Source: Allacma fusca (Eukaryota > Arthropoda > Collembola > Symphypleona > Sminthuridae). Taken from it: a stretch of DNA of 64,000 nt. The notes below the pieces were generated by a model, which was not told the origin of the DNA, did not search any database, and was given only the letters and a program-made list of their open reading frames with translations. Positions 13,753-39,281 of this stretch are shown here, one piece after another. The stretch spans positions 55,004,386 through 55,068,385 of the forward strand of contig OX359248.1 in the NCBI GenBank assembly GCA_947179485.1, written 5' to 3'. Each line of letters opens with the position of its first letter. Positions within the stretch are counted from its first letter, which is position 1. The position numbers were made by a program, and so were the translations under genes.

Positions 13753-13851
13753 AGTAGTATAATATACTTTACTTATTTTTCCTGCAAAAGGATACTCCCG
13801 GAATTTCGGGAGCAGTGGGTTACTCCCGAAATTTCGGGAGCAGCAGGTTAC
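13753..13851 (+). repeat. Left terminal inverted repeat of the Polinton
   Basis: Starts AGTAGTATAATATACTTTAC and matches the reverse complement of 39183-39281 at 98 of 99 positions. It contains the near-palindrome CTCCCGGAATTTCGGGAG (13795-13812) and the perfect palindrome CTCCCGAAATTTCGGGAG (13823-13840). A decayed third copy begins at 13851, giving an exact 28-bp period. Confidence 0.95.
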
Positions 13852-14235
13852 ATCCGAATTTTCGGGTTTTTCCCCTATACCTTCAACATGGGTGTGTTGA
13901 AGGTATGGGAGGAAAAGTGAAGGGAGACAAAATTATTTTTGTCGTGGACAAAGGGCAGCGGCACTTCCAATAAACTGGCCGCTGTCCCTCCGACTCCACG
14001 GGAGATTTTGATGGGATGCAGCTGCAGCCATGGAATGTTTATGGCTTGCAGCTGCATCCTGTTTACTTCAAATGCTCCTATTTTAACATATATTGTCCAT
14101 GAGAATGTTTCCAGGTTTGATGATTCAGTTTGACTTTGGATTTTCATGCTTGTGTAGTATTCCTTTCGGTTTGTAAAAAAAATATTGTTGTATCCCGTAA
14201 CCAGTTTAATATTGTTTTAATGTTTTAAAAATTGC

Positions 14236-14348
14236 GCCAAGGTGTAAATTAGTAACATTTTGTAAAGGTGCAACAAGTCGTGAACTATTAACAATTGTAA
14301 GGGTGCAATAAGTCGTGAACTAGTAACATTTTGTTAAGGTGCAAAACG
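14236..14348 (+). repeat. Short degenerate minisatellite
   Basis: About three imperfect copies of a unit with the core AAGGTGCAA(C/T)AAGTCGTGAACTA, separated by TAACA-TTTTGT. The period is about 37-45 bp. Confidence 0.6.
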
Positions 14349-17300
14349 TTGGGAGATTTTAGAGTGTGATTGGGTGCTGTGTATCTGGTGCTTTTTTTAA
14401 GTTTGGTTAAATACAAGGAAAAATATGGACCCATTTTTGATTTTGGTAAAGAATATATTTTTTTTGTATCAATTATGCTTTGCTATGGTCAAGCTTTTAA
14501 TTGAATGAGAGGCGTCATTTGAAATGATGTCGCTCAATAGCTACTCATTTGTAATGGATAGCTATTGGTTCACCATTGATTGGTGTACCAACGTAAATTG
14601 CAGAAGTAGCTCTTTATTAAATTCTGTTTCCGCCTTGAATTAACTGGCATCAGTCTGACTGCTGGAGATCAGAGCATTATAATCATATCAATGTCGGGCT
14701 TGTTGTTTTACCCATTTTGTTACCTGTGGCTGGGGCTCTTTTTAATGAGAGCAAACTTTCGTGACATAAAATTTTACATATATTTAGACATGTGCCGATA
14801 GCTTTGATAATTGCAAGAAAATCTTCGCATACTTTTTTCTACATGCATTTTCAAAAAATTGTTTCCGTAAATTCAAGGGCGAATATAAGAGTCAGAACTA
14901 TATTGAAGCAGTTAAATCAGAAAAATATTTCTGGTAGGAAAAATCTTAAAGACAAGGGATTGTTCGGGGTTTGACTTCGTTGACATTTTCATTGCCACGG
15001 ATTAGGGATTTTTAATATGAAGCTAATATCCTGTAGATGCTTGCACCGCTATTTCCTCCCAATGATCTTCAGCATGTTCCCCTTTTGAGGTCGTATTGGA
15101 GGAACAAGTTCAACACATGTCAACCTTTTCGCTCCGTGGTGTGTTGACAAGCGACTCCTTTTGATGGCTTAATTAGATAATGTGTCTTGAACTTTTGGCA
15201 TAAAGCCCGTGTCAATTTTGTAATTGTTTTACTTTCAATTTCCAACCCGAGCCCCATACATTTCTTCCCCCCCCCCCTCCCCTCTCCCTCCAACCCTATT
15301 CCTTATTTAAATAAAATAAATAGTGAGACACGTTTAGTAATTTTGATTTCCCATTTGTTTTGTGTAGAGGGGGATTTGAGGATGAACTGTCAATGTTGGA
15401 AATAATAGAGATTGGTGAGACTGTAATGAGTGTGGGGGGATGAAATAGTGAGAAGATAAAAAAATGAGATGATTTATTCCAAGTTATGGAGTAATGAATC
15501 AAAAGATTGACTGTCCGTAAGGAATTTAATGGGCTACCTTATGGTGAAATGATGAAATGATGGATTTAAGCATTTAATACATGTTCAATAATTACACAAG
15601 AATGGTGATTCCACATAATAAATAAAGTTCAATGCTCTGTTTCTGTTTCGTAATGACTGCACGGTCTAAGAAAATCGGTCACGACGCGTAAATATGCAGT
15701 ACACTGAGTACACTTGATCATCTCCAAATGCCTAGGCATATATCATGCACTCACAATGAGATTATAATGCCAACGGCGTCACCTACACCTATATAGTCCT
15801 TGTAGGTATAGGGCCTGGTATGGGTATGTACATATATAGGGATAGGGCTGGTGAGTACACGCATCACAATGGATATTGACAAACTCCAAGAATATATGCT
15901 CAGCATTAACTTAAATATTAGTTTCAATTTTCAAACGTGTATTTTCAACACTTCTGTCGCACCGTGTCGTACTTGCATTGACTACCACCAAGTGTGTTCC
16001 TCATGCCCAGCTCTTGTGTAGGCAATAACCATATTGTGCATTGTTCCCAAAAAGAAAGGATCACTTGTGGGAGAGTGGGAGGGGATGGAGTCAGCTCTTT
16101 AGATTCAATTCTACATATATATATATGGGACTTCTCCCATTGAATGCACCTCTCAAGAGAAAAAAATTAGCATTGAGGCAAAATGGAACTGTCTCCAAAT
16201 ATTTGGTCTTCTACAGACATCCAACCCTCCGCTCAATGCTGACCATTATAAGGAGATGTTCTGCAAATGAGTTCTCATAAGGATAAAAATTACCATTGTT
16301 TTTTATACGTGACTCCCAGGACACTTTTGCTCCTACAAAGGAAAGGTTCTGACGGTGAGAGGCCGTCATATCGAAAGTTAACTGTGAGCCCGGACTGGAG
16401 ATAGAGAATTACATGCGGACACTTGAGAATAGCCAATAAAGCTAAAGTAAGCACTCTCATTCCAATTCCCTTTTAGCATATTCAAGTAAATACCTAGGAG
16501 TAGTTGAGGGGAGTTGGGGCTAAGGGGGAAAAAAATAAAAAGTCCCCACTCAAATGACTGGAGCAAGTTGGGAAAGTAGATCACTTGTTCTGGAATTAAT
16601 ACAAACGTTCCGTGGGACTCGGAATGAGCTAATTTAAAATTTAAATGACAGCAAAGTGCAATTATTTGCTGTTAATTTTAAATCGTCCTTCGCTCTCAAC
16701 TCCTCTCGCGTAAATACAAATTCATTCAGTTACATCCACCTCAGACGGCACACGTAGAGTACAGTGCACTCTCACTCTGAGAGTCCTCCTCCAAGGACAT
16801 TGTACATATAGATATATTCCGGGACAAAAAATAATTACTGGGACAGAGTTCCAGTCACCACAATGTTCATTCGTACCCTTAGGAGAGCGTGTCATTAAAA
16901 GTGACTAGATTCAGAGCTCTTCATGGGGCACAGTATTAGGGAGAGTACAATCGACTCTAACTATAATGACTCTCCAGATACCAGTCCTTCCATCCTCTGA
17001 CTACAGTCTGGGATCCTACCTGGAGAATGTATGAAACACATATATGCTAGAGTATAGCTCGACGCAATAACAAGTAGGTACATTTCGCATACAGGACTCC
17101 ACTCGTGTACAATAGCAAATAGATATCTACATATATGTACCTTGAGACAAAATGAATCAAGTCCAAGCTACTCTAAATTCTCTACCAACTCCGCATCCCA
17201 CTCTCAGTCTGTCTACAGTCGACTCTCCATGGACTTCAAGTTTCCTCCCGTTATAAGGAACGTAGCCTTTGTAGGGATTCATATAACTTCACATGTAAAT

Positions 17301-18299
17301 AATTACGTATGTATAGATACATAAGATCTGCAGGGAGAGTCCCACCGTGTGGTTATACACTAGGAAGTATCCTCATGATAGGGAGAACTGTTATAGGGAG
17401 AATTGACTGCTAAAACTTTCCAGTCAAGAAAAAGTCTTGAACTGGAGAATAGAAATAAACTTGCTGTTTAAATAAGTTCTTAAAATATCAAACTGGAATT
17501 GCTATTATCTATTGATAATTACTGTACTCTTAGTGGGACTTGAACTGGACAGATGTAAGACCAGTGGAATTGAACTGTTCAAATATAAGTGAATAAAGTC
17601 AACTTGCCCTATGAGGGTTCCTTTCATGATGGGACTTCGAATGTAACTGTCCCTTATAACGAGGGAAAAAATTCATGCCGACATAGTGTCATCATAAAGA
17701 TAAGGAACTGTACCGAATTTTTCCATGGAAATGTATTTACAGTATGAACTGCGGTCCTTACATTGGCGAAAATGTTTGTCATGATTGTTGTACATACTTA
17801 TGTAATGACAATGCACTCTCCATGTAAGAGCACGCCTAAGGATCACAAATTGGTCTCTTGGAATGCCTTGATGTGTTAAGGAGAAAAATTGTGGGAAAAA
17901 AGGGAATGTGACAAAATATGCCTGCGGTTTTGGGTCTCTTCATAATGGTAAGCATACTAAAACGAGCAATTACAGTAAAATATAAGTAGATACTAATACA
18001 TATGACTATAAAATATGAACATTAAACTCTTTCAAAGAATTCAAAATTTAAAGGGAAGCATCTCTGATTAAATTATACTGCTAAGTACAAAGTTAAGAGA
18101 TACTTTAATTTTGAATTCGATTTTGCAATTTCAAAGAATTATTCAGTGAATAGTAAATTTCTGCATTATGTATTACAGTGATATGACATCTCTGCAGATA
18201 TGATTGAGTGCACAGAAGTCCTCTCATTACTTTCCCCTGCTCCAGATGTAAATAAGCCAGAATGAGGCTTTGCATGAGGAACAATTACTCTATGTGCAG

Positions 18300-18480
18300 A
18301 ATTTTTGAACTTAATGGAAATACATACTAATTGTAAATATTGGGAAAGTCTTTGAGTGTTAAACTGTAAAAGTCGGAGTCTCGTACTGAGAGTTGTTCCT
18401 TCCACATGTTAATTTTATTCTTATACATGGGTCTTTTATCACTTTCCTTTTCCTTTTATATATGGAATAAATGAATAGCC
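18300..18480 (+). repeat. Dispersed repeat inside the Polinton left arm (copy A)
   Basis: The segment around CTGAGAGTTGTTCCTTCCAC and the following CTTTCCTTTTCC...GAATAAAT stretch matches 53060-53230 in the same orientation (CTGAGAGTTATTCCTTCCAC ... CCTTTCCTTTTTCATTTCC ... GAATAAATA). The copies are diverged. This supports a host origin for part of the left arm. Confidence 0.45.
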
Positions 18481-20024
18481 TTCTTGTTATTACTCCAATT
18501 TCATTATTTATCCATGCATCTCAATTATTCAGTAAAGGACGATGCATTAATTTATTTTTGATAAGAAAAGTAGAACTCTCTTTAAAAATTTTGAAGCCCA
18601 CAAGATAAACTTTTGTTCATAAAAATAAAATAATACATCGAAATTTCATGAATAAATAATTAGCGATACCTTCGAGTCAGGACTTCTGGGCACTCAATCA
18701 CAACTGGAGAGTGTGTCAAAGTAAAAACGTTGTAAAGTATTGTTAAAATTTTTCAAGGTAGCATTATCTTACAGTAAGTTTTAATTAGTTAAAGACGCGA
18801 AGTGAAATATATATAATATATTAAATAAGGTTAGAAGTTCACTTTTAACACAAGGCTTATATTTTATTCGCAGCAACGTTTCGAGCTTTTACTCTTCGTC
18901 AGGCAAATGATATACTAGTAGTAACATTCAATATAATGCATACTACAATCAATAAAAATTGAAAAATTGAAATTATTGATTTTTCGATTATTTAAAATAA
19001 TCATAATAAACTATTTTTTAAAAATATGAATTAGTTAAGCCATTTAAAAAATTTTTTTTTGTACAAGAAAGACATGAATTCAAATTGAATCAAAGTATTT
19101 TTCCTCATATTCTCAATGTATGTATTCAGTACACTCTCCTCCTTGTAGGAGCAGGCTCTGGAGAAACATTTGATATTGACAATGTCATATAAGGGGAAAC
19201 ATTTACATTGGAGGAAATAAATGGAACTGTGACAAAATATTTGTTCTCCTTGAGATAAAATGTTCTTGCCTAAGGAAGTCTCTTAGAATCATCAAGTATA
19301 CAGTGAAAGTAATCTGCATCAAATTAATTGTGAACTATTGGACGGGTTTAGATCTATCTCTGGTTTTCAACAGGGATTCTGTTTTGTGTGTAGGAACCCA
19401 CTGAGTAATTAAAAAAATGAGCAATCGAAAATGGTAAATTAATTAAATGAGTAAATGTTTCCTGTTCTAGTGAAGGATTAACAGGATGAAATGGTTTTTG
19501 GTCGGACCTGTGGGTTTGTTAATTTTGCTGCCTGGACCGAGCTTTATAGTTGAACTTTAATTTCGGGGCGAACGGGTACGGACCTAAGATATCCTAAGGG
19601 GAGATGCTCTAATAGATGCGCGCATGATATCGTATGCACTTACGTATTACTACATTAAAATGCAATAGAGGCGTACACTTATATCTTCATTGAGCACAAA
19701 CGTTAAGATTAATGAGTCCCAATGGCATGATCTGTAGGTTTGAAATACGCACAATACATGTAAAAGAAATTTAATGCCATGTCTGCCGAATCTGTACACA
19801 ATGCTCACTTACACTTAAATAATAATATTTGTTTGCGTATCAATACAGAAACGAGATCTAAAGCCCGTATTCTATCAGTAAAAACTCCGTCTTTGCTTGC
19901 AGTTAAAATCTATACAAATCTTGCATACACATTTAGAAGATACTAATCCTTATGACCGGGTAAATTTCATATAACTATATATATATAGATACAAAACATC
20001 TTTCATCATTCGTGTAAACAATCT

Positions 20025-21357
20025 CTAAACTTGCGGAATCACACCTTGAATCAACGGATTTTCATGATGTGGGAGTGATTCCAGCCTGTCCCACACAAAA
20101 TTCATGCGAAGTTGCTGGTCATCAGAGTTGTCACCATCGGAGGAAACTGCATCAAATACGTTTCCAGGGCTAGTACACAAATTGTCGAGAATATCTTCTG
20201 ACAAATTCACATCTTGAATGTCCTTGAAACAATCGTCTTCAATACCTTCGAGCTCGATAAATTGTAAATCTTCCGGAATCAGCATATCCTTTGTGGGAAA
20301 TTCGTCAGGATCGCCAGGACACAGGGTCTGTTGATCACAAAGCCCAAGCGCTTCAATGTCGTTAATATTTTCAAATGCATCTGCAAGTACATCATTGAAA
20401 TTGGGATCTCCCTTTTCGTTTTCTGTTAAGTCAATACAAAGAGCATCATTCCCTGAATATACATTATGAATCTTTTGAAAAGATTTATATTCTGTTAGTT
20501 TCGTCTGCTTGTACTTACGAGCATCCGACGGGGGATCAATTTCAAGTTGGTAATTACTCCTTTGTAATGTCTGTTCGGACGGCAGCCTTACAACAGGTGT
20601 AGTTTCTGTCGTAGGTGGTGAAGTCGGAGGACAATAAATGGCTGCATACAAAGCCAAAATACCGACATTAGGTCCGGCTGCAAAGAAGCAGAAACAATTT
20701 TGCTATAATAACTGATTTGTCAATGTCATCCTCACTAAAACTACTGCTATGGCTAATAGTTAAATTTAACTTACGGTTAAAAATAGTAGCTGGCCGACCA
20801 AATTCATCCACGTAGACGAGATGGGCTGGCTGGCCTCCATTAGTGAGTAGGTTTGCCTCAGCAGTCACTACATAAAGACAAATTATGTAGTTTCACTCTA
20901 ATCCTTTTTGTCTGATACAGAGGAATACAGATATGAAAAATAAATATTAAAACTTACGTTTAATTACGCCATACCATCGGAAACTGTTGACATTCTTCTT
21001 TTTGGAAACGTTCAGCTGCGAGAATTTGCTCAAGCTAAATGGACACTCTTCTGCATTGCACTTAAACTTGTAATCTTGAGGACAGTTTCTCGCAAAGAAT
21101 TCTGTGCTGAATTCCAGCAAGAGACACTGTACATGATATTTATGTGAAATAGAACCCTCGCCGTTGTGAAAGACGTAGCCAATGTTTCTCCACAATGCTT
21201 GTCCTCTATAGTTACACTCATCTAATATGTTAGGAACTGCTCCTACCTGCCCGTAATAAAATGGTGTTAGAAACGGAAGAACAATCTGCTTCTGGTTCTC
21301 AGGTGGCATGCTGAATGCCTTCTTCTTACATATAGTACAAAACCTATGTTTACTCAT
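20025..21357 (-). CDS. Spliced zinc-binding/acidic protein, unknown function (381 aa)
   Basis: Three exons, 21357-20958, 20867-20775 and 20677-20025, join in phase through GTAAGT donors and TGTAG/TGCAG acceptors. The first usable ATG is at 21357. Residues 1-110 hold C7-x2-C10, a YHVQC pair (H75, C78), C92, C100 and C105, which resembles a RING or treble-clef zinc site without a full match. The C-terminal 200 residues are acidic and look disordered. They contain a PIP-box-like QTKLTEY, which lacks the second aromatic. I do not recognise the family. A zinc fold plus an acidic tail would fit a transcription or replication regulator, but that is inference. It is the last gene of the leftward block. 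Confidence 0.72.
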
Positions 21358-21538: not shown

Positions 21539-22199
21539 TTAGGTAATTGGGACATTCACGTAAGTGCGCAATCCATAGTGGACAATGGGACAGATGGGTC
21601 GAACATGATCCGTTGGAGGCTCCTCGTATGTAGCTTCAGCGAAGCTATTGGAGTCAACACTCTCCCGCGTATACGAAACAAAAGGAATGTCCTCAAGTCC
21701 TCCACGGACATTAATTGCCCTCTCCCGCTTTTGTGTGCACATCCAAATAACCGTCCCTATTGTTAGGGCCAACAAAATCAGCACGACAAGTGTTACTGTA
21801 ATTAATAGACACAATATACCTTTAAGAGCTTAAATTCGAGCATATTCATTTCCCTCATCCCATTTCAAAAGAACGAAGTTGTTCAAAGAAGACAAAATAT
21901 TGGCTTATACCCCAAAAGATGGATGCTGCAGACATTGGTTGACTGGGACAGTCCGAGAGACTCCTTGCCACCGAAATGACTGCATCGTCCAATGTGCCCA
22001 GATTTGCCACGCAGCAAATAATATGGTGCACTGTTTCCACAAAATAATTTCCCCAATGCACGCATTCGAGGCAGCTGCCAGTATACTCACAGACTGTTAT
22101 AAATAAATAAATAAAGGTCAACCAGTATGCTCGGATATGTCACAACTAAGCGTACAATGCACTTCAAACGACTAATTGCTTACCGTCCTGTGGATTCAT
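21539..22199 (-). CDS. Spliced single-pass membrane protein (151 aa)
   Basis: Three exons, 22199-22184, 22093-21911 and 21795-21539, join in phase 1 at both junctions to one 151-residue frame. The N-terminal ~67 residues are Cys-rich (seven Cys) and look like a small extracellular module. They are followed by a strongly hydrophobic segment (VTLVVLILLALTIGTVIW) and a basic stop-transfer KRER. The ~60-residue tail includes EEPP and several tyrosines. No signal peptide is visible in this model. An acceptor-like TTATTTTCAG at about 22208 suggests a further upstream exon, so the true N-terminus may differ. It sits between the helicase and the zinc/acidic gene on the same strand. An envelope, receptor-binding or host-modulating role is possible but unproven. 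Confidence 0.65.
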
Positions 22200-24146: not shown

Positions 24147-24545
24147 TCAGTAGGGCCGCAGTAAGACACTGCGTTTAAATGAACTAGTCAACGGTCTTGC
24201 ACTCACAATCAGCAAACAATTACACTTTTTAATTCGCCCACCTCTCCTTGAACTGAAGCAAACGGAGCAGAGTCGGTGGTTAGGATATAGATTAAAAGTA
24301 AAAATTGCGACTCTTTCTTTAGCTGATGGGACTCTTTGATCAAATATATGATCTAGTTCGTTGCAGTTGTTGTGACACAGACAGGATTTGGAGAGAATTT
24401 CAAGATCAACTAACGTCCAGCAATTGTCGTCATTGTATTCCAGAATAGTACACTTTGCTGCCCGAAACCAAGTTTGGGTGACGGCTTGGTCGTGCATGGT
24501 TGTCATTGAAATGAAACCCGGGAGGAGAGAGAGAGATTGTTGCAT
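24147..24545 (-). CDS. Small Cys-rich protein, unknown (132 aa)
   Basis: The frame runs from ATG 24545 to TGA 24147 and is followed after three bases by the helicase ATG, the same tight packing seen elsewhere in the element. It has grouped cysteines and histidines: CLCHNNC near residue 56, then a HxxCxxC pair and CNC around residues 91-110. This fits a small zinc-binding domain, but I recognise no family. It is the first gene of the leftward block, next to the divergent promoter region. A GTGAGT inside its 3' end could act as a donor, so the C-terminus is uncertain. Confidence 0.55.
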   Translation of the reverse strand: MQQSLSLLPGFISMTTMHDQAVTQTWFRAAKCTILEYNDDNCWTLVDLEILSKSCLCHNNCNELDHIFDQRVPSAKERVAIFTFNLYPNHRLCSVCFSSRRGGRIKKCNCLLIVSARPLTSSFKRSVLLRPY

Positions 24546-24908
24546 TGACGGGGGATTATTTCCTCAGTCAGACTGTTAGAATAAATTGGTTTGACTGCGG
24601 ATGTTACAATTGTAGGTGACTCAACACGACTACTCAATGAGATCATAGGCACTCTTGCTATTGCGAGAGATTAAATCCTAAACGATCATTAAGGGTAAAA
24701 TCTCAAACGTTAAAATCTAACGGAAGTGCCCCAAAAACTCACGACAAAAATGGAGCTAGGTTGAAAACGGGTATATGTAAATAAAGTTTGTTTTTCACCA
24801 GTCCAACAAACGCTGATACTTTACGTAAATCAATAAATGAAATATCCTATAGAGGTCCTATATATCAGTATAACCTACGCGATGTCATACTGATCGGGCT
24901 TCTTCAAA
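24546..24908. promoter_or_regulatory. Divergent promoter region between the two Polinton gene blocks
   Basis: Both gene blocks start outward from this 363-bp gap. On the right side a TATA box (CTATATATCAG, 24859-24869) lies about 50 bp before the first ATG and about 120 bp before the preferred penton start. No clear TATA element is visible for the leftward block. Confidence 0.55.
24859..24869 (+). promoter_or_regulatory. TATA box of the rightward (virion) block
   Basis: CTATATATCAG sits upstream of the penton gene with no other gene between. The expected transcription start is about 25-30 bp downstream, near 24888. Confidence 0.5.
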
Positions 24909-24986
24909 ATGTATTTATACGAAATCATTACGGTATTTTTGCTCATTGATTCGTGTTCAGTAGAAGGTGAAGGCAAGGAGTGCACA

Positions 24987-26587: not shown

Positions 26588-26947
26588 ATGCGGCAGGTGT
26601 TATGCGATGAAAAGGCTTGCGTGCTTGAGCCAGGCTCACAGACGCAGAAAGGCGGTGGAGCAGACAACACAATTTCCTACATGGCTAGCGGAGGACTTAA
26701 CCCAGAAGCATCTTCATACCTAATCCCACTAAGAAGTGCAGGTAGTGCCACCAAGTCCCGTAGAGTTCGAAAATCTCAGACCGGAGGAGGCGGAAGCAGA
26801 AGAAGGCGGCAGACAGTCGCGAATCAAGTCGGTGCAGGACGGAGACGCGGGCGAAGACGTACAAAGAGAGTGGGTAGGCGAAGGGTGCAAATTGGCTTTG
26901 GACGAAGGACGGGAAAGAGACGGTGTGTACGGCGAAAATCCGGTTAA
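26588..26947 (+). CDS. Basic core-like protein with protease-site-like motifs (119 aa)
   Basis: The N-terminal half is moderately polar. The C-terminal half (from residue 57) is almost entirely Arg, Lys and Gly, as in DNA-condensing core proteins of adenovirus type (pVII/mu-like). Two Gly runs, QKGGGA (20-25) and TGGGGS (65-70), look like maturation-protease sites; the first recurs exactly in the 159-aa gene product. It lies between the two capsid genes with TAATAATG junctions on both sides. A role in packing element DNA in the virion is inference from composition and position. Confidence 0.75.
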   Translation: MRQVLCDEKACVLEPGSQTQKGGGADNTISYMASGGLNPEASSYLIPLRSAGSATKSRRVRKSQTGGGGSRRRRQTVANQVGAGRRRGRRRTKRVGRRRVQIGFGRRTGKRRCVRRKSG

Positions 26948-26949: not shown

Positions 26950-28433
26950 ATGGACCTTAACGCCGTGTTTCAGGAGAAGCCAACAGTTTACGAGGGGTCG
27001 CAACAAAGTGCACGCTCAGAGGTGCAACTATTTGAGCTTCCACCTACGGATCTTACGACTCAACTTAGCAGTGACTACATACAAGCTTTTCCTCTTGTAA
27101 GCATTAAGGAGTCGTACAATCCTCTGGAGTTTCTCATCCAGCTGGACTCTTCGGGATATTTTGACCCTGCAGACTCATTCCTGTCGTTGACCTGTAGAAT
27201 AGTTAAGCAAGATGGAACACTTTGTGATGACAATGACGTTGTTGCCCCCTCAAACCTCTTTTTTCAAACAATGTTTTCCAATTTGGAAATCTACCTGAAT
27301 GGACAGCTGGTCTCGGACTCTGGAAACCACTATGCACAAGTAGCCTACCTCCAAAGGTTACTTGCCTCAAGCCCCGCGGAGAAGAAGGGGAGGTTGCTAA
27401 ATGAGTTTTATTATCCCAATAGCAAACCGGAAGCTTATACTACGGCAGATGCCGGTTTTTCATTACGCTTTAACAAGACTAAAAGTTCGCAACCCTTCAC
27501 ATTACTTGGCAGCTTGGTTGCGAACATTTTCAACCAAAATCGCTACCTCCCAAGTAATTCGGAAATTCGCATAGTTCTCCGGAGGAACCTTCCCGAGCTA
27601 TGCTTGACGGCTGCTTATGACACCAAAGCAGGATTCAATGGCTGCCCCTACAACTATCAAATCACCAACGCGGTCTACTATGCATCAAAGAGGGTTATAT
27701 CCAAACCCATTATAGATGCACATCGTCACCAGCTGAGTTTAGGGCATACATTCAAGTATCCCACAACAGAGGTAGAACTGAAAACCTTTACAATAGCTCA
27801 GGGACTGACCAGCGTAACTACGGATTCCGTAGTATTTGGAAAAATCCCTCGTGTACTTGTCCTGGGAATAGTGCCAAGCATTGCATTCCTAGGCAAGCTT
27901 AGCAAGTCCCCCTTTAATTATGTGGACAAGAACTTGTCCGAGCTAGGGTTTACGTGGAATGGCGAGACCGTTGAGCATCGCACATTCCCCTTCAACTTTA
28001 GGAAGGCGCGCACTGCAACCGTGGCTGGCAAGGAAGTAACAGTCTACTCTGGCGTTGACGACTTCCTACTCGCTGTGCGGTCATTAGAAAAGACAGCCGG
28101 GAACGCTGCGTTGGGCAACGGCATAAATCGGGACACGTTTACTGCTGGTAAGTGTAAATTAAATTATATATACTAGTTAACTTTAACTTGGACTAAAGTG
28201 TGGAACAGACTACTTGACATATAATTTACGTTACATTTACAGGTAACGTACTGACTGCTGTGGAGCTGCTGCCTAACAGTGGAAACGCCCTCAGTGTAAA
28301 CAGACGTGGACAGGTCAAGGTGCAGCTGAAGTTCCGGGAACCTTTGGACGAGCCGGTGAACGTCGTTATCTACACCCAGTATCAGTCAATTGTAGAAATT
28401 GACGGCAACAAGCAAGTCATATTCGATCACTAG
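26950..28433 (+). CDS. Polinton major capsid protein, double jelly-roll (462 aa, one intron)
   Basis: Hexon-like major capsid protein of the Polinton family, seen in many animal genomes as F54H12.2-like proteins. Exon 1 is 26950-28147; a 95-bp GTAAGT...CAG intron (28148-28242) follows; exon 2 is 28243-28433. Phases match. Without splicing the frame stops at 28176 and would lose the conserved C-terminus, which ends in a VVIYTQYQSIVEID block as in relatives. Recognisable segments are the N-terminal jelly-roll strands (SNLFFQTMFSNLEIYLNGQL) and the central FNGCPYNYQITNAVYY/HRHQL region. The length fits the family. The stop is one base before the protease ATG. Confidence 0.92.
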
Positions 28434-28434: not shown

Positions 28435-28974
28435 ATGAATACTCATTCCTTGCTCGAGGGTCTACGTCTACTTCTGAGCACGCGGAAGTGTGAGACTCAA
28501 TATTTTGTTGTGTCCGCCGACCGTGTGCTTGAGCAGGAAATTAAGAGCTATCCGTGTATATTTATAGTAAACACAGACCTAGCTCCCGACAGAGGCAAAC
28601 ACTGGATTGCATTTTTTCTATTGTCGCCAAGTGCGTACGAATACTTTGATTCGTTTGGCAAACCCAGATCTTATTATCGGAATGTGCAGCGTCCTCGAGG
28701 GAAGCTCATTAAGGAAAACTGTTTGCCCATACAAAGTCAGTTTTCCGATACATGCGGACACTTTTGCCTATACTTTTCCTACCTCCGTTCTTTGGGTGTG
28801 CCCTACGAAAAAATTCTTAGACTGTTCAATGCGAATCTGACGGGCAATGAGCATTTTGTGGAAAAGTTTGTTCGCAACATTCCCAACTTGCAGGAACGGG
28901 GAATTTATAACATTGATCGCAAAATTCAAACTTGCGTTTCGCTTGTGTACGATTTAAGGTGTAAAAAACAGTAA
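28435..28974 (+). CDS. Adenain-like cysteine protease (179 aa)
   Basis: Virion maturation protease of the adenovirus/Ulp1 clan. GKHWIAFF supplies the catalytic His (H56), FDSFG the acidic residue (D72), IQSQFSDTCGHFC the Gln (Q100) and the nucleophile Cys (C107). The start is the ATG at 28435, one base after the capsid stop. The length fits Polinton proteases. Likely substrates are the basic core-like protein and the 159-aa protein, both of which carry QKGGGA. Confidence 0.92.
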   Translation: MNTHSLLEGLRLLLSTRKCETQYFVVSADRVLEQEIKSYPCIFIVNTDLAPDRGKHWIAFFLLSPSAYEYFDSFGKPRSYYRNVQRPRGKLIKENCLPIQSQFSDTCGHFCLYFSYLRSLGVPYEKILRLFNANLTGNEHFVEKFVRNIPNLQERGIYNIDRKIQTCVSLVYDLRCKKQ

Positions 28975-29201: not shown

Positions 29202-29849
29202 ATGGATTTCATTGAGTTTAAGCTAGCGCACCCCTGCACGGCAACACTTCAAGGTCCCACAGGAAGTGGGAAATCAGTCCTGGCTATGGAAATAATCCGC
29301 AGAAGGAATGAAGTATTCGACGTACCCATTGAAAAGGTCATATATGTATATTCAGACTATCAGACTAGCTTTCATAAACTACAACAGGAGGATTCAAACA
29401 TAATATTTACAACTAACATCAACGACATTGAGGAGTTGGCTAGGGACCCCTGCCTAATTGTAGTTGACGATCAGCAAAGTGAAATCGCAAAGGGTGCATC
29501 AAATGACTTGGTGACTCGATTTTTCACAAAGCATTCACATCATAGGGGAGCGTCAATTATACTAATTCTTCAAAATAGCTACGCCAAGGGTATGCGAGAT
29601 ATTAATATCAACACGCAATGGACGTGTCTGTTTGACTCGAGACGTGACAGGTCCACTATTACATCAATCGCAAAGCAAATTTGTCCTGGACAAGTCGCAT
29701 TTTTGCAAGAGGCGTACATGAAGGCTGTTACAGCTAGAGACTATGGCTATATTATTTTGGACCTTCACCCCAAGCATCGACAGTACAAGTACTGGGTAAG
29801 GTCAGAGCTGTTCCCCTTGGAGAGCTGCCTTGTTTTCGCACCCAAATGA
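29202..29849 (+). CDS. FtsK/HerA-type genome-packaging ATPase (215 aa)
   Basis: Packages DNA into the capsid using ATP; the A32-like ATPase of Polintons and related viruses. Walker A is GPTGSGKS (18-25), Walker B LIVVDD (85-90), and an FFTKHSHHRGASIILILQN segment (about 107-125) is typical of the family's sensor region. The start is the ATG at 29202; an upstream in-frame GTG is not used. The length fits the family. A six-base spacer leads to the next gene. Confidence 0.93.
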   Translation: MDFIEFKLAHPCTATLQGPTGSGKSVLAMEIIRRRNEVFDVPIEKVIYVYSDYQTSFHKLQQEDSNIIFTTNINDIEELARDPCLIVVDDQQSEIAKGASNDLVTRFFTKHSHHRGASIILILQNSYAKGMRDININTQWTCLFDSRRDRSTITSIAKQICPGQVAFLQEAYMKAVTARDYGYIILDLHPKHRQYKYWVRSELFPLESCLVFAPK

Positions 29850-29855
29850 GTTAGA

Positions 29856-30182
29856 ATGCATAATAACTCCAGCAGGTTTGAAAAACGGATAAAACTTATT
29901 CATACGCTCGCCCTTTCCAGCACAAAGTCATTTAAAGAAATTATTAATAGCTGCGACCAGGAGGATCTAAAGACAGTAGTGGAGTGTCTCGCTAACTTAA
30001 ACCTTTTTCTCCCACGGACATATTCTCTGACAGGTTTACGGAATTCTACCGTGCTAAAACAGGACTTGGTTAGAAAGGCTAGATTCGTCAGGGCGGCACT
30101 TGCCGAAATCGTGCTGCATGTATTAATAGGCGAGGTTTTGAGCATCATATGTAGCAATGGCAAAGGTGATGCGAGTGATTGA
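29856..30182 (+). CDS. Small conserved Polinton protein (108 aa)
   Basis: The pattern of the first half (LIHTLALSSTKSFKEIINSC followed by a CLANL segment) resembles a small helical protein found next to capsid genes in many animal Polintons. In those proteins a run like LxKA(K/T)xxQRKALL is followed by a conserved LxECAxNxL block. I base this on recall of the pattern, not on a search. The C-terminus is hydrophobic (ALAEIVLHVLIGEVLSII), which could be a membrane-active helix. Function unknown. It overlaps the next gene by 26 bp. Confidence 0.65.
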   Translation: MHNNSSRFEKRIKLIHTLALSSTKSFKEIINSCDQEDLKTVVECLANLNLFLPRTYSLTGLRNSTVLKQDLVRKARFVRAALAEIVLHVLIGEVLSIICSNGKGDASD

Positions 30183-30636
30183 GCCCTCCTTATACGATAA
30201 ACTAATGAAACTTGCTGCTCACGACCCCGCTGAGACCAGTCAAGGTGGCGAAGAATCAAAGCATAATGAGGAGAAGGAGGAGAAAATAGAAAAACCTGAA
30301 TCTAAGTCAGATGAATTAAGTACACCAACAGACGTAACGAAGCACACACCTCATCACGTTTGCTGTTGTAAACTTAAGAAGAGACAACTTGAGCCAGAGT
30401 GGAAGGCTTTCGAGGATTTAGACTGGCCAAAAGAAGAGCGGCAAGGAAAAGCCAATCTGCCCGACGATTCCCTGAAGGATGCTGCTAGTTTAGTTGAAGA
30501 AACACCAGTCGTTCAATCTGAGAAAGTAGAGGAGACGAGGCGGCGTGTACTACGCCCCCGCAAACAAAAAGGAGGGGGTGCAAGGAAAATTAAAAAACAT
30601 CCGTCCAAACCAAAGTACCGCTATTACTATCGTTGA
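30157..30636 (+). CDS. Small acidic/basic virion-type protein with QKGGGA site (159 aa)
   Basis: It starts MAKVMRVIEPSLYDKLM, which resembles a small Polinton protein with an N-terminal VLVPxxxYxxLL block. A Glu/Lys-rich disordered middle and an HHVCCC cluster (66-71) follow. The C-terminus is basic after QKGGGA (137-142), the same six residues as in the basic core-like protein. Cleavage there would release a ~17-residue Lys/Tyr/Arg tail. The stop overlaps the integrase ATG (TGATG). Confidence 0.7.
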   Translation: MAKVMRVIEPSLYDKLMKLAAHDPAETSQGGEESKHNEEKEEKIEKPESKSDELSTPTDVTKHTPHHVCCCKLKKRQLEPEWKAFEDLDWPKEERQGKANLPDDSLKDAASLVEETPVVQSEKVEETRRRVLRPRKQKGGGARKIKKHPSKPKYRYYYR

Positions 30637-31616
30637 TGTCACAGCTTGTAAAGTCCAGTTATTTAGACCAGAGATTGGCTGGAGCCTTCTCGGGTATCTC
30701 AGGGTTTCTTCGCAACCATCCGGAATTCAAAGATAAAGATGTGGTTAGTCGGGAGTTGAGAAAACTGGACGGATATTCCCTGCACAAGCAGGTCAGGCGT
30801 AAATACAAACGCCGGCGCATTATGGTGCACTTTATTAACGAAGTTTGGAGCTCCGATCTTAAAGACATTGAAAATATCGCACCATATAATGAGTGCAATT
30901 TTTTTGTCCTAATTGTCGTAGACAGTTTCAGTAAGAAGGCCTACACTAGACTTATAAAGAACAAGAACTCCGAGTCAATGATACAAGCCTTCACTTCTGT
31001 GTTCAAAGAAGCAAAGGCGAAGCCTATGTATCTCTTTAGCGATAGGGGGAAAGAGTTTGTGTCCTCTGCATTCACATCGTTCCTTGAAAAGAACGATATT
31101 AAGCCTTATCATATATATTCAATAGTTAAGGCTTCGATAGCTGAGCGTTTCATACGCACGCTTTTCGCAAAACTACAACGCTTCATGACGCAAAACAACA
31201 CGAAAAATATTAGCAAAGTTTTGCAGGACTTTACCAATACCTATAACAATTCATTTCATAGTTCAATTGGGCGAGCGCCCAACGAAATAAATGTCAAGAA
31301 TGCTTTTGACACTTGGCGATACCTATACAGACGTCACCTGGAGGAGGCTAAACTCCCTAGGCCTCCTCCAAAGCTAGCAGTAGGTGACGTCGTCAGAATT
31401 TCTCGAGCAAAATTATTGTTTGAGAAGGGATATGCTGAGAATTACAGTAGGGAATTGTTTAAAATATCAGAGGTATTGACGCAAAACTTTCCCTATACAT
31501 ATAAGATTGTAGATATGTCGGGTGAGGAAATTGCAGGTCAGTATTATGACTATGATTTAAACTTGGTGACTACAGCCGATGAGGCAAAATATGTTCCCAA
31601 AGTCAGTGCAATATAA
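30636..31616 (+). CDS. Polinton retroviral-type (DDE) integrase (326 aa)
   Basis: Inserts the element DNA and makes the 6-bp duplication. The catalytic triad is visible as D74 (WSSDLKDI), D136 (YLFSDRGKEF) and E170 (VKASIAERFIRT). The C-terminal part (KLAVGDVVRISRAKLLFEKG) is the SH3-like domain typical of Polinton and Ty3-type integrases. The start ATG shares its first base with the preceding stop codon. It is the last gene of the rightward block. No frame damage is seen. Confidence 0.95.
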   Translation: MSQLVKSSYLDQRLAGAFSGISGFLRNHPEFKDKDVVSRELRKLDGYSLHKQVRRKYKRRRIMVHFINEVWSSDLKDIENIAPYNECNFFVLIVVDSFSKKAYTRLIKNKNSESMIQAFTSVFKEAKAKPMYLFSDRGKEFVSSAFTSFLEKNDIKPYHIYSIVKASIAERFIRTLFAKLQRFMTQNNTKNISKVLQDFTNTYNNSFHSSIGRAPNEINVKNAFDTWRYLYRRHLEEAKLPRPPPKLAVGDVVRISRAKLLFEKGYAENYSRELFKISEVLTQNFPYTYKIVDMSGEEIAGQYYDYDLNLVTTADEAKYVPKVSAI

Positions 31617-31699: not shown

Positions 31700-31784
31700 T
31701 TCTAGTGTCCGGTCAAGTGTCGGATAATCCCCCAATAGTCGTGATATTCAAGGATGCTTAAAGTCAATTAATGCTTTTGCCTAA

Positions 31785-31793
31785 GTATATAAG
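31785..31793 (+). promoter_or_regulatory. TATA box of the 237-aa gene
   Basis: GTATATAAG, with the expected start of transcription around 31815-31820 (GCCAGTCCC) and the ATG at 31879. Confidence 0.6.
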
Positions 31794-31878
31794 ACCCTCT
31801 AAACATCATCGCCAGTCCCTCATTTCTTCATCTGACATTATCCTGGCCGTACCTCTGAAAATTTTACATCTTGTGAAA

Positions 31879-32592
31879 ATGAGTAAGTTTTATCTGGAAC
31901 GTCGTTTCAACGAAAGTGCGAATGGAGGGAAGCCAAGTGAAAAGAGAACTAGGCCAAAGTTGAAGCCATTCGACTCTAGTCTATCATCATCAGTATCATC
32001 TCCTGCTGCTGCTGCTGCTGCTTCCTACAAGGACGAGTCGCCGTTTACTTGGAACTTTTTCGAGAACGCAAAAGACTCCTACTTTATTGACAGCGAGACG
32101 TTGGTGCGTTCAGCCTTTAACGACCGGCATAGGTGCACTTTTGTGCACCTGGGACGTCGCAACCGAACAGGAGGCGTAACTACAGTCAACTTTTCGCAGA
32201 ACGAGGGAAAACACCTTTTGCAGTTCCTTGGAGAACTACTCGACCAATTGACAGTGCATCCCATACAAGGCCGGAGCTTTGACGACTTGATTCCCTTCTT
32301 TGACAAGGATCCCTTGAGAGCATATCACTCCCCGGATTCCAGAAAGGATTTTTGGAAGACACCCGATTTTGAGAGTTCATCTGTCCGGGCAAGACTTGTG
32401 TTTAACCGGATTCTAGGGTCGTACGAGCTGCTGATCAACCGCCCCATCAGTGACGCACTTGCCTTGAAATTCAAAAATTGGCTTGGGCCAACGCTCTACC
32501 TGAAGTTGCAGGGGATGCGAAATTTGGAGTCGTATTTATCGTCCGAGTCTACTTTGGACGCGGAAGAAAAAGATCTAGTCATGGACGTGTGA
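31879..32592 (+). CDS. Unknown Polinton protein, possible PC4-like ssDNA-binding fold (237 aa)
   Basis: The frame also has an ATG at 31771, but that lies before the TATA box, so I use the ATG at 31879. The N-terminal ~50 residues are Ser/Ala/Lys-rich (nuclear-signal-like KRTRPKLK and an alanine run). The core around residues 64-120 (FIDSETLVRSAF...CTFVHLGRR...GVTTVNFS..EGKHLLQFLGELL) follows the strand-strand-strand-helix order of PC4/p15-type ssDNA-binding domains. The resemblance is in pattern only. If right, it could be the element's ssDNA-binding protein. A poly(A) signal AATAAA lies at 32693-32698. It converges on PolB. Confidence 0.7.
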   Translation: MSKFYLERRFNESANGGKPSEKRTRPKLKPFDSSLSSSVSSPAAAAAASYKDESPFTWNFFENAKDSYFIDSETLVRSAFNDRHRCTFVHLGRRNRTGGVTTVNFSQNEGKHLLQFLGELLDQLTVHPIQGRSFDDLIPFFDKDPLRAYHSPDSRKDFWKTPDFESSSVRARLVFNRILGSYELLINRPISDALALKFKNWLGPTLYLKLQGMRNLESYLSSESTLDAEEKDLVMDV

Positions 32593-32921: not shown

Positions 32922-35900
32922 TCATACATTTTTCAGCTTATAATGCCCCAAGGGCAAACTAAAGTTAATATCTGAAGGGTCTGGATAAATTCTATATACA
33001 TCCAAGCTATGAAATCCAATTTTATTAACACTAATAAAATACAGAGTATGCTTTACACTACGAATGTACTTCACATTCATCTTAACAATACTATTTTCTA
33101 AAACTACATCTTTATATTTCTGATGAGAAAATAATTTTAAGGACGAGAAAGGAATCCCTTTGGCTTTCATTTCCTCGTCCTTGTTAGAATAAAGTATCGA
33201 GTACTGCTTGGACTTTAGCGTCACGACCTCGGATATATTTAGCGACTCGATTTTCCATTTACCTGACTCCCCAGCGTTCATCATTCTCAGATCTGGTATA
33301 TGGGCAAACAACTTAAAAAATTCATGATTCTCTGGAATTTTGGAGAAATCAAAATATTGACGATTCTTTACTAAGTCGAGCCACAGTCTATTTTCAGGGT
33401 CTTTAATGATGGATATACTGGAATCAGTGTCCATGTATAGATTGTAGATACGTTCCCCAAAAACACGCTTTAGTTGTTGATAGTAACCCTGATAGAATAT
33501 AACTTTAGCAAGGTCTAGGACAGTAAACCCGGCGGCCGTAGGTTTGTTCATTACGACTTTCTTCGGCTGAAGCATTACAATGCTAACATTTTCAGTTACG
33601 GGCATAAAGTCTACACACTCTGGTTTTGAAAGGAGGTGACGACTTTGTGCTCTAGAACTACAAAATTTTATCCGATTATTATTTTTATTGGATTGAAGGC
33701 ACTTCCCATAGGCATTGTTGTTTTGATCTTTCAAAAACTTACGCATAGATTCGCTTCTAGCAACCTTCCTGCGATCAATATTAAACTGAATATAGTCTCG
33801 GAAGTACGCCTTTTCGGTAAACGAAATACCCTTATGAATTTCTAGTAATGTCAGTCCCATTTGCAAATAATATTTCAACGCCTTGTAATGTACAGTATAT
33901 TCTTCTCTGTTGTAGCAGTGCAGCATTAGACGGGACTGTGAAAGGAACGATTTTTTTGTACTGATTCCCAGACTGTTCATTACTCTCTGTTGATTTGCAC
34001 TCAGCTCATCTACTTGTATCAACCGTTTCTCAGGTGCAAGTGGTAAATCAACTGTCTTGTCTTGTACATCGTTCGGGTAGCCTAACGTAACTTGAAGTAT
34101 GTATCCTTTGTCATCCGCTCCGTCGTACGAGGTCCAATCTATAGCATCCAGTTCCTGCTTCTCCACCCACTTGTAGTTTGAATACGGAAATTTATCTAAC
34201 AACGCTGTAGCGTACAGGCTAACTTTATCTAGATAAATAATATGTGTCCTTTCCTTTTCCGAGTCATAATGTTCAGAATTTCGCTCATTGTTTGCTGTCT
34301 GTATTTTTCGCGTGCAAAATGTTGTACCCCCTCGGATACCTTGTGATAAAAGTTTTATCATACTACTATCTCGAACATATTCCACTTCAGCTTTAGTCTT
34401 AAACAAGAAACACTGCCAGGAATAACCACTACCTGTGCACATATAGGTCGGGTCTAGCCCATACATTTCAATTCCATTACGTCTAAAATTTTCCCAAATT
34501 ACTGCTAACAGTACAGTATCGATAATAGTGTAAAGTCTTGTGAATTGCTTGAAGTCGTGAATATTAAATGCCTCACACACCTTCCCCACTCTTTCCCACT
34601 CTTCGTCTGTACACGTATCATTACAAAGGTCATTGTCGAAGTGTTGTCTACTTGGAATAGGATGATTCGCAGTCAAAACGTCTTTCGATGACAGATACCT
34701 GTAGGGATATACTAGTTTCTCAAACAACAAGTTAACTGTCTCATCATTTAGATCTACTTTTAGTCTCTTTGATGATGGTTCACCATCTGTTTCAAGGATG
34801 TACGGAATGCTATCCCGTATCAACTTCAGCGTGCTGGCATTTTCTTTTTTAAGTGCTACAGCTAAACTACCTAAACTATTTTGCAAAAACTGGCACGAAT
34901 CAATGAATCTTAGTTTTACCTTCCTATTCCCTGCCCAGCCACCAACCGCTTTGTGCGCCGTGTTGTACTGAAAGTTAAGTCTGGGAACATACCTGTCGCG
35001 CGCAGGTATCTCAAGCTGCACAAATTTTTCCGAGTTCTTAGATATTATGGAAATGTCCTTGACATCGAATATGGGGTTTTCTAAATGTTTTATTAGCAAA
35101 TGAAAATCAAAACCGGCTGCATTATGCGCTATGCAGACAAGTTCGTGTTTGTATTTAACTTTTAAGTTACATCCTACACATAACGTATTTAGATACTTAC
35201 CAGACTGATGACAATGGTGATAGGTTTTTGTTACCCTTTTGCCTGCAGCAGCGTGTTCATTGGTTTCGTTCTTTTCTGCATCGCATGTAAGCAGGGTTCC
35301 CGCATCATCAATGTTGACACGAATTGAACTGTCCTCTGCGTCTTGGGGTGACGTAAACTCACGATTGCAAAAATCACAATGAGTCGCATTGTTGTGACGC
35401 TCAGCTTCCTCGGAGGTTGGAACGATGAAATTATTCGTTGTTCTTATGGACCAAAGTATATCTTCTGCATGCCTAAACACACGTTCGAAGAAATGCGCTA
35501 CTACGTTGTCTCCATCGTAATACTCCAGAGCATATATGCTCTGCGTAGTGGCGTGGCTGTGTACAATGCATAGAGAATATGAGGCAGGTTCAAATTTAGT
35601 TTCTATAGTTGTAGAATGACCTAGAATGCTTTTGTCTGATACATCCTGTGAAAAACATTCAAAGTCCCAGTATAGTACGTAGGGATATGGTAAGGTTAGT
35701 TCCGGTCTTGTGAATTTTAACTTTTCTCCTTCCTTAGGAAAAGTTTCGATTACGTCTATTCCTTTTTTACATTTCTCAATGTGTTGTGATAAGGCTCTTA
35801 CATTTGCAAATGATCTTAGACAGTGATCACAAAAGTAAGCTTTTGTAGGTCTTTGATAACCAAGGAATTTATTCAGACATGTAATTAAAGCCAAATGATA

Positions 35901-37040
35901 CGAAATAGTCTTTCTAACCTTCTTATGAATTAAGAATAGATGTACTACTTTTTCCGTGCGAAGTGAGCTGCTTCGTATCATAACTACCGCGTCACCTCGA
36001 TGGCTTAATATATTTACTGCTATGCCATTCATACCTTCAAACTTAGGTACGTCATTATATATATTAACCATACCTGTTATACAGGAAAAATCAAAACGAG
36101 TAATGTATTTTTCCCACGTTTTATGTGAGGCGAGATTCTTGTTATCCTTTCCCATCCTCTGATTTTCCAACTTTTGCTCTTCATAAAAGATGCTAGCTGC
36201 TACACAATATTGAAAACATCTTGCATCTTTGTTCTTGAAATTAATATATCCCTGTCTAGATTTAAAAGGCATATCCAAATACCCGCTAGCTCTAGAATTC
36301 ATAAACAGCCTAATTTCACCTATTTTAATTTCAAAGGAATTTACTTTTACTAGATTCCAGGACGAACCATTCTCTATAAACGAATTTTTCTTTTCAATTA
36401 TCTGCGAAGCACTTTGTAAAAGAATGCTGTTAATTGAACCAGCCGTCTGAAGCTCGTAATGAGGACTCTTAAAATAAACCGTAGCTTGCTTAAGACTTAA
36501 ACTACCATCCTCTTCTACAATTTCCTTCTCCATAACAACTCCTATACTAATTTCTATTTTTGATAAAGTATGTATACGGTAAAGTTCAGTTAGGAGCCTT
36601 TTTGCGGACGGAGCTACAACCGAAAATGTTGATTCTACATCTGCGGTGTTTAACTCATGTTTATATTTGTAACTAACCATACTACCACCATGGCTCCTAC
36701 TGAACTCTACAAAGTCAGTAAGGTCAAGTTGTTCACCGGCATCAGTATGACCCAAGCGCTGTCCGGTCATTAAACATTGATGATTGTCCAGATCCGGATA
36801 ATAGTTAGCACAATCCATGCACAAATGCCTATTTTCCAAATGTCCCTCATAGTTAACGTAAGACCTACAATAAAACGGACAATTTTGCAGAGAACACCTC
36901 AGGACCTGCAATTAAATAATTTAGTTTTAGTAACTATGTTCTAAATCCGTACACTAAACTAGGGATACAAAATATTTGATACTTACCGAATTATTCCCTC
37001 CGGCCCGTATAGGTTGCGGTGGTTCGCTTGTGCCACTCAT
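32922..37040 (-). CDS. Protein-primed DNA polymerase B (1,345 aa, two exons)
   Basis: Replicates the linear element from its protein-bound ends. Exon 1 is 37040-36987 (18 codons); exon 2 is 36905-32922, joined in phase 0 through GTAAGT and TTGCAG. Without the first exon the long frame has no ATG at its start. Domains in order (residues of the spliced product): an N-terminal Cys/His cluster, a second C2HC finger (CDHC...H..C, about 377-397), Exo I WDFE (about 431-434), Exo II HNAAGFD (612-618), Exo III YTIID (810-814), Pol A DKVSLY (911-916), Pol B KFLKDQNNNAYGK (1074-1086) and Pol C YMDTDS (about 1175-1180). All exonuclease and polymerase catalytic acids are present. The length fits Polinton polymerases. 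Confidence 0.95.
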
Positions 37041-37081: not shown

Positions 37082-37560
37082 TCAACCGCCGGTTTCTTCT
37101 TCCTTTGCTACCCTCGTCTCTTTCCAGGTTATGTAGATTGCCCGTCCTACTTTCAACAGCTTAGCAAGAACATATAGAACCAGTATAGTCAGGAGTACTA
37201 TTTAAAGAAAGCATCTTGTTGCAGCATTGCAATCTAATACACCTATCTATTATAAATGTGTCTAGCACTATTTCTATACTTACTAATCCAGTTTTCGGAT
37301 TGCGATGTTGCTCCACCCCAGACCATATGCATATTATCGGTTTCATTCCCTCTGCTTTGCTGAGCCAACATTTTTTTCAAAATTATCTCTAGCCCACTTG
37401 CTATAATTTCACTGCCACTGCTAGCAAAATCACTTTGACGCATTTCTTTAAGCTGCAATTTGTCCTCTATGCTATTGAGAACCTCTGTAGAATTTAGTGC
37501 CGCCACTTGCAACAACAAAATGCAAAAGCTTGCACCGCCGATCGCTATTGCTTTCCTCAT
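37082..37560 (-). CDS. Spliced type I membrane protein (130 aa)
   Basis: Exon 1 (37560-37284) and exon 2 (37197-37082) join in phase 1 through GTAAGT and AAATAG. The N-terminus is a clear signal peptide (MRKAIAIGGASFCILLLQVAA). About 70 residues of ectodomain with N-glycosylation sequons (NST, NET) follow. Splicing then creates a hydrophobic segment (ILLTILVLYVLAKLL) and a basic/acidic tail of about 25 residues. If unspliced, the protein would stop before any anchor. The gene precedes PolB on the same strand, 41 bp upstream of its first exon. I recognise no family. A membrane protein with this layout on a virus-like element suggests a role at membranes, such as entry, egress or host interaction, but this is inference. 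Confidence 0.7.
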
Positions 37561-37633
37561 GCTGATAAATTGATGACTGAAAAAATACTAGCTGAATGTT
37601 TAATTTTAAACCCCAATTTTTGCATAATTGCAG

Positions 37634-38982
37634 GACACCATTCCCGCTGAAGTTGCGCATGAAGATGAACTAATTGTTCAGGTTCCTCCAGAGAAGGAGG
37701 TAAATGTCAACGACGAATTTGCGGGTGCTGATGCTGTCGACGTCTTGCTCACACCACTCGTCATTCGCGAGCATGCTCCAACTCCATCCCCAACTTTTTC
37801 GTCCCCATTGGATTTTCTTTTCTCGTCTCTATCATCCTCATCAGCATCCGACTCATCATCATCATCAGAGTCTCCGCCCCCACGTCCCGCCAGAAACCGC
37901 AAAAGGGTCATTAACAGCGAGTCCGAATCGCCGGACACTCTACCCACTAAGCGCCTCCCCTCAACGATAAAGAAGACATGCACCAAAAAGATAGAAGTCT
38001 CAAGATCCCGGGTGCATCCAGAAAATCTAATCCTACAGATGAGTTTAACGTCTGTTCGGAAACAACTAGCGGAGAAGCAGAAAGAAACTGATGACTTGAC
38101 AAAAGCACTTCAAGCAGCACGGGAAGAAATCGCAGCGTTGAAGACAGCGGACGGGCAGCGAGAAGCCAAGTTCAACGCAGTATTTGGGAACGAACGCCGG
38201 GCCAAGGATGACGTTGTTAAACTTCTGGAGGTGTCCCAGCAACAACTTCAGGATTTCAAGACCAACTTGGAAAACAGCCAAACCGATCTTCAGCAGCACA
38301 AGGATGCCGTTGCCCAACTCACCGCTCAGCTGGACGCGCGTTCCAACGAATTGAAATGCGCAAACATGAAAATATCCATTCTGGAGTCCCAACATACCAG
38401 CAGCACTCCCGCCATAGTTCAACACATCTATGGCCCTGGCAATCTCCAACAGCGCAGGCGAAACGCGCCACAAATCCAGAACACTTCGAAGGTAAGCTAA
38501 ATAAATTCATAACAACTTCTTCTTCAGTATATAATGTTTCCCCGACTTTGCAGGTCAACAATTATTTCAAGTACATATTTATAACTTGAATTATTATATT
38601 TCAGTATCCGGTTGGATTTGCTCCCTCTATTGGTATGTTTTTTGTTAAATGCGCCACTCACCGGCAAGAAAAGGAGTTTGAAAAACTCGGACACGATCTG
38701 GTAATCCATGCCGTGAAAGCTGTATTTGGACCAACCTCCTCCATTACCAGATACAGATTTGCCGTGAAGGTCTTCTTTCCGACTCTGCACGAGGCCCAGG
38801 AAGCATACAACATGACTCCTGTGAAGAATATTTGGATTCCCTACACCGATGTTTTTTTAAATGTAAGTCTAATTTTTTCAGCGTTTCTATCGAGCGTATT
38901 TGTGCAACACAACTTACTTAAACATTTTATCATGTTTCAGATTGAAGCGCCATCTCCCGACAATTACATCAGAGGCCAATAG
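37634..38982 (+). CDS. Spliced Ser-rich coiled-coil protein, first exon missing (at least 385 aa)
   Basis: Exons 37634-38491, 38605-38862 and 38941-38982 join in phase 0 at both junctions with good GTAAG donors and TTTCAG acceptors. The first of these begins at a TTGCAG acceptor with no in-frame ATG nearby, so the start lies in an unrecognised upstream exon. The N-terminal part has an acidic stretch, a Ser run followed by a Pro/Arg-rich basic segment (nuclear-signal-like RNRKR) and a long heptad-type coiled coil (about 38040-38400, KQLAEKQKETDDLTKALQ and onward). A compact C-terminal domain of about 90 residues, with aromatic strands (YRFAVKVFF, IWIPYTDVFLN), follows. I do not recognise it. 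Poly(A) signal AATAAA at 39103-39108. Confidence 0.68.
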
Positions 38983-39102
38983 TTCAACCATCATTTATTT
39001 TTAAATATTTTCACATTATATTTTTATAAACCATACATTACCGTTAACTGACATATGCTCAATGATGCGTGCCAACCAAAACAGGGGTCCCTGTATATGT
39101 AC

Positions 39103-39108
39103 AATAAA
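39103..39108 (+). terminator. Poly(A) signal of the coiled-coil gene
   Basis: AATAAA about 120 bp after the stop and 75 bp before the right terminal repeat. Confidence 0.5.
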
Positions 39109-39182
39109 ATTATTTTTCATTCCATTACCCTATCTTCAATGTATGAATAATTTCGGTGCACCCTGTACACTAAAAACCCAGA

Positions 39183-39281
39183 GTAACCTGCTGCTCCCGA
39201 AATTTCGGGAGTAACCCACTGCTCCCGAAATTCCGGGAGTATCCTTTTGCAGGAAAAAAAAGTAAAGTATATTATACTACT
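39183..39281 (-). repeat. Right terminal inverted repeat of the Polinton
   Basis: The reverse complement equals 13753-13851 apart from one position in a T run. It carries the two palindromes at 39194-39211 and 39222-39239. It lacks the decayed third copy seen on the left. Confidence 0.95.

Follow-up and report, generated by a model that had tools for sequence, protein, structure and literature searches.

Architecture of the integrated element

The window, a 64,000-nucleotide stretch of the Allacma fusca contig OX359248.1 (assembly GCA_947179485.1), contains an element of 25,529 bp (positions 13753–39281) that lies between terminal inverted repeats and has predicted genes on both strands (Table 1). 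The left and right 99-bp repeats are identical at 98 of 99 positions, with a sole mismatch at 13775 (A versus T), and the element is flanked by a perfect duplication of TGCAAT. The first-pass annotation of this DNA had given these coordinates, termini and duplication exactly to the base, and the 5′-AG start that it described is, more specifically, an AGTAGT start matched by an ACTACT end. Each end of the element also has a 28-nt tandem array that contains the palindrome CCCGAAATTTCGGG (13789–13866 and 39181–39245); these arrays lie partly beyond the matching 99 bp, the left one starting inside the repeat. Close identity between such repeats need not reveal the age of an insertion, since replication that starts at the ends can keep them alike. 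The pairing of terminal inverted repeats with a 6-bp target site duplication is a mark of Polintons (Mavericks) in a vertebrate survey (PMC8097293).

The longest stop-to-stop frames in the element comprise 1329, 563, 513, 432 and 340 amino acids, compared with a mean maximum of 143 and a highest value of 218 amino acids in 100 randomised versions of the same sequence generated with a first-order Markov model. In 2-kb windows, the G+C content is 0.39–0.46 across 20–40 kb and 0.31–0.40 in the left part of the element (14–20 kb); in the flanks it is 0.30–0.375, except for the first 4 kb (0.42–0.45). That left part has almost no coding signal apart from a single borderline stretch of 150 nt near 14.0 kb. 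A search there for a nested transposon found a longest inverted repeat of 33 nt and, elsewhere in the window, three short, weak matches (best E 0.007). The two arms of this 33-nt repeat (88% identical; 18190–18222 and 18679–18711) lie 456 nt apart and could bound a small non-autonomous insert. The heptamer ACTCTCC occurs eight times between 14 and 20 kb against 0.75 expected from the flanks, a weak excess, since it was chosen from all 7-mers. Rfam gave no match at its gathering thresholds.

Several features lie outside the element. Aquaporin-family (MIP) exons occupy 6907–7892 (−), about 6 kb from its left end, and a polar-rich, 1020-amino-acid open frame at 2–3061 (−), without a Pfam match, runs past the window edge. 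Two short tandem arrays with an 11-nt unit like TCGAGTACGGT lie at 41330–42089. Further right, 55761–58670 (+) looks like a decayed non-LTR retroelement: a reverse transcriptase (RVT_1 1.2e-28 in 56601–58670) is preceded by a second frame (55761–56528), with a break near 56530–56600.

Table 1 Features of the element, in order along the window
Feature	Position	Strand	Basis or remark
Left target site duplication	13747–13752		TGCAAT, directly outside left repeat
Left terminal inverted repeat	13753–13851	+	Opens with AGTAGT
Roughly 6 kb without coding signal	14000–20000		No nested element recognised
Predicted three-exon accessory gene	20025–21357	−	Exons 21357–20958, 20867–20775, 20677–20025; Cys/His-rich first exon
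Predicted three-exon accessory gene	21539–22199	−	Exons 22199–22184, 22093–21911, 21795–21539
PIF1/Dda-like superfamily 1 helicase, about 512 aa	22605–24143	−	Pfam PIF1 4.7e-22; PHROG Dda-like helicase 1.9e-41
Open frame upstream of helicase	24147–24563	−	Same frame as helicase, TGA-ended
Penton (minor capsid) candidate	24909–26585	+	Length; one gene upstream of capsid gene
Small Arg-rich protein	26588–26947	+	Composition; no Pfam match
Major capsid protein	26950–28433	+	Exons 26950–28147, 28243–28433; predicted 95-nt intron 28148–28242
Adenain-like cysteine protease	28435–28974	+	PDB 6lj9 (ASFV S273R), E 0.0017
P-loop ATPase	29202–29849	+	Weak matches to several P-loop families; position among capsid genes
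Small open frame	29856–30182	+	
Small open frame	30157–30636	+	Lys/Arg-rich end
RVE-family integrase	30636–31616	+	Pfam rve 1.4e-12; PDB integrase 7z0h 0.0011
Open frame	31762–32592	+	
Family B DNA polymerase, Polinton type	32922–37040	−	Exons 37040–36987, 36905–32922; predicted 81-nt intron 36986–36906
Small open frame	37243–37560	−	Signal-peptide-like start
Open frame	37628–38500	+	Ser/Pro-rich, then coiled-coil-like; opposite-strand overlapping frames also score as coding
Right terminal inverted repeat	39183–39281	−	Closes with ACTACT
Right target site duplication	39282–39287		TGCAAT, directly outside right repeat

Capsid, protease, ATPase and integrase genes

A fold search with the predicted model of the capsid protein (tested range residues 39–346, without the last exon) returned a double jelly-roll fold, which supports its assignment as the major capsid protein. 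At rank 33 (E 4.4e-4) the model also matches an adintovirus protein labelled as a penton, so the labels of both capsid genes deserve a check. A protein search found 21 relatives of the capsid protein at 26–81% identity, and the PDB, searched by sequence with the capsid frame, gave no match. The penton is a candidate by its length and by a position near the capsid gene like that described for Polintons (PMC4028283); its predicted model, from a two-row alignment, has a pLDDT of 29.9. The composition of the small Arg-rich protein makes a virion core protein possible.

In the protease, the GKHW and Cys regions align with those of ASFV S273R, as in an adenovirus-like cysteine protease; its match to Pfam Peptidase_C5 (E 0.033) falls below the cut-off. 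The ATPase, from its weak generic P-loop family matches, is probably the packaging ATPase, and the integrase belongs to the RVE family found in Polintons. In NCBIfam, the capsid protein, protease and polymerase had no match, and the integrase and helicase matched only below the curated cut-offs. The first-pass annotation had credited the element with all replication and virion genes; this holds for the polymerase, integrase, protease and major capsid protein, and is less secure for the ATPase and the penton. Its view that the core genes are open, and that the element is a Polinton, was borne out.

Polymerase and helicase

Aligned to the seven relatives found by protein search (26–46% identity), the polymerase retains the exonuclease I–III motifs and the polymerase A, B and C motifs. 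Three of the five relatives scanned match PF03175; the polymerase of the element itself and the relatives P0023 and P0028 do not. Together, the alignment and the PF03175 matches of the relatives point to a protein-primed family B polymerase, as expected of a Polinton. The INPHARED phages contained no polymerase match at E 0.001, and in the PDB the polymerase sequence recovered a sub-significant zinc-finger chain and the polymerase profile no match.

The helicase has its best PDB match in 8bnv (2.4e-28), with PIF1 helicases among 19 matches. A match to Helraiser (3.7e-14) is weaker than those to the best PIF1-type chains, which argues against Helitron debris. The best relative of the helicase is another Allacma fusca protein, P0029 (40% identity over 63%); the remaining 98 of the 99 hits show 22–32% identity, most over at least 70% of the query, apart from a single one with 49% over 10%, and the organisms named among them are a slime mould and bacteria. 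We also considered whether a premature stop splits the helicase from the open frame directly upstream. Compared with 127 retrieved proteins, that frame gave no match at E 0.5 and thus no sign of a severed helicase N terminus; a splice may join the two.

According to a 2024 preprint (PMC11071308), the gain of a helicase in this virus group is accompanied by the loss of the exonuclease, for which it is suggested to compensate. The present element has both an exonuclease-bearing polymerase and a superfamily 1 helicase, as separate genes. S3H helicases have been described in virophages and near Polintons (PMC3671162), and a limited look at the literature found no PIF1-type gene in a Polinton.

Predicted introns and accessory genes

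The introns that the first-pass annotation placed in the capsid and polymerase genes are supported as predictions by frame-keeping GT-AG sites and, for the capsid gene, by a shared break point. The capsid frame departs from the consensus of its relatives at a glycine codon that GTAAGT interrupts, and past TTTACAG the sequence resumes as in relatives that read on. We aligned 19 of the 21 capsid relatives, omitting P0015 and P0001, the latter an apparently chimeric gene model. Twelve reach the glycine, of which eight depart directly after it and four (P0007, P0009, P0010 and P0021) read on; P0002 stops just before it and six end or diverge earlier. The four that read on may represent intronless genes or spliced transcripts. 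In the polymerase gene, the predicted intron follows an 18-codon first exon and is proposed from GT-AG sites and frame, without comparative support.

Both predicted accessory genes have GT-AG sites and frames that are consistent at every junction, and the parts searched gave no clear family for either. The gene at 20025–21357 has an acidic C-terminal part, a sub-threshold RING-H2 match (E 0.23) and a last exon without a Pfam match. The gene at 21539–22199 encodes a Cys-rich segment, a single hydrophobic, transmembrane-like stretch and a short tail; its second exon has no Pfam match.

Comparison with related elements

The element shares with the intact vertebrate Mavericks (PMC8097293) the 6-bp duplication and, exactly, the (AGT)2//(ACT)2 ends; genes for the polymerase, integrase, capsid, protease and, probably, the packaging ATPase; and the placement of the capsid/integrase block and the polymerase on opposite, mutually facing strands. 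Its 99-bp repeats fall inside the vertebrate range (46–1447 bp), and its length slightly exceeds theirs (12,723–24,620 bp). Unlike the vertebrate elements, it places the ATPase with the capsid genes and has a PIF1/Dda-like helicase. Furthermore, whereas the conserved frames of the 134 intact vertebrate elements are intronless (PMC8097293), two core genes here carry predicted introns and the capsid frame stops short of the C terminus of its relatives.

Organism names are attached to five of the 28 capsid and polymerase relatives (three of 21 and two of seven), each being Allacma fusca. The three capsid relatives, unnamed protein products, show 81% identity over 72% (P0001), 65% over 81% (P0003) and 48% over 74% (P0016), and the two polymerase relatives 45% over 90% (P0022) and 42% over 65% (P0025) of the searched region; all are known as proteins alone, partly as fragments or chimeric gene models. 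P0001 shows 81% identity to the capsid protein and 56% to a 289-residue stretch of the polymerase, and its sequence suggests that it comes from a related but different element.

In IMG/VR, no relatives came from searches with the capsid protein or its alignment, with the ATPase, with the penton candidate or with a 22-mer from the terminus; the polymerase alignment found a sole contig, L001 (IMGVR_UViG_3300028392_002905). Its polymerase is 28% identical over residues 205–1323 (E 3e-113) and its RVE integrase 28% identical (tblastn, E 1e-15). Over 15,363 of its 17,398 bases, two of 16 window frames match, these being the polymerase and the integrase, and the other 14, including the helicase, capsid, protease and ATPase, match no better than E 0.076. 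L001 itself encodes, in 3052–14062, a Pox_A32-type ATPase, an RVE integrase, a Polinton-type polymerase and a probable capsid protein, and is a distant relative.

Identity of the element and alternative readings

The ends, the target duplication, the open core genes, the polymerase motifs and the capsid fold support the identification of this element as a Polinton. It bears most of the published marks of that already known kind and, judged from sequence, adds a free-standing helicase and, by prediction, introns in two core genes, those of the capsid and the polymerase. We therefore regard it as very probably a structurally complete Polinton integrated in an arthropod genome, a confidence that attaches to the identity and not to each step of the mechanism proposed below.

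A helicase of superfamily 1 also occurs in polinton-like elements of the Tlr1 type, which share RVE integrase and capsid genes with the present one and to which, or to virophages, it might instead belong. In the Tlr1 type, however, the helicase forms a fusion with a polymerase palm that has no exonuclease (PMC11071308), whereas here it has a frame to itself and the exonuclease motifs persist in the polymerase. With a single stated exception, virophages carry an S3H helicase (PMC3671162), and no S3H family appeared among the element frames scanned; we consider either assignment the least probable of all. Scarcely more credible is control or domestication by the host, with the capsid genes serving it. 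Maverick genes are linked to bracovirus in parasitoid wasps, the capsid fold finds its best viral match in a protein of Cotesia sesamiae bracovirus, and core genes have predicted introns, but the exact ends, the target duplication and the open replication and integration genes better fit an autonomous element.

A far more serious reading, to which we give close to an even chance, is compatible with Polinton identity: the insertion could be young but silent, intact just from recency, unexpressed and forming no particles in this host. The roughly 6 kb without coding signal is consistent with this, as is the vertebrate survey, which found 134 intact elements and degradation at 96% of loci (PMC8097293). 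Against it, the open core frames retain catalytic motifs, and the persistence of these proteins in relatives (26–81% identity for the capsid, 26–46% for the polymerase) indicates a lineage under constraint. The first-pass annotation had called the element no fossil, a claim that the data back in part: no core gene contains a premature stop.

For a functional Polinton of this kind, the family suggests the following cycle. The RVE integrase would insert the linear element at a cut with a 6-bp stagger, and the TGCAAT duplication would result. A terminal protein at the repeats would prime the polymerase, which would copy the element by strand displacement, perhaps aided by the separate superfamily 1 helicase. 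Copies would be packaged by the ATPase into a capsid of double jelly-roll type, whose maturation would fall to the protease, and would move within, and possibly between, hosts.

Implications

No publication on springtail Polintons came up in our literature search. We tentatively propose, as a possibility less likely than not to hold in full, a springtail-associated Polinton lineage that combines a protein-primed polymerase still bearing its exonuclease with a PIF1/Dda-like helicase of its own, at odds with the suggested trade-off between exonuclease and helicase; a capsid gene needing host-nuclear splicing at a conserved position; and a spliced membrane-protein gene possibly acting at the particle or cell surface. 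Virion production by Polintons is a long-standing open question, particles being unobserved (PMC8097293). An apparently complete copy whose ends are defined to the base, in a small soil-dwelling arthropod, offers a definite empty-site test, and the predicted introns provide definite splice junctions to seek in RNA. With its helicase in a gene of its own and exonuclease motifs in its polymerase, the element can also serve to test the rule suggested for polymerase evolution in this virus group.
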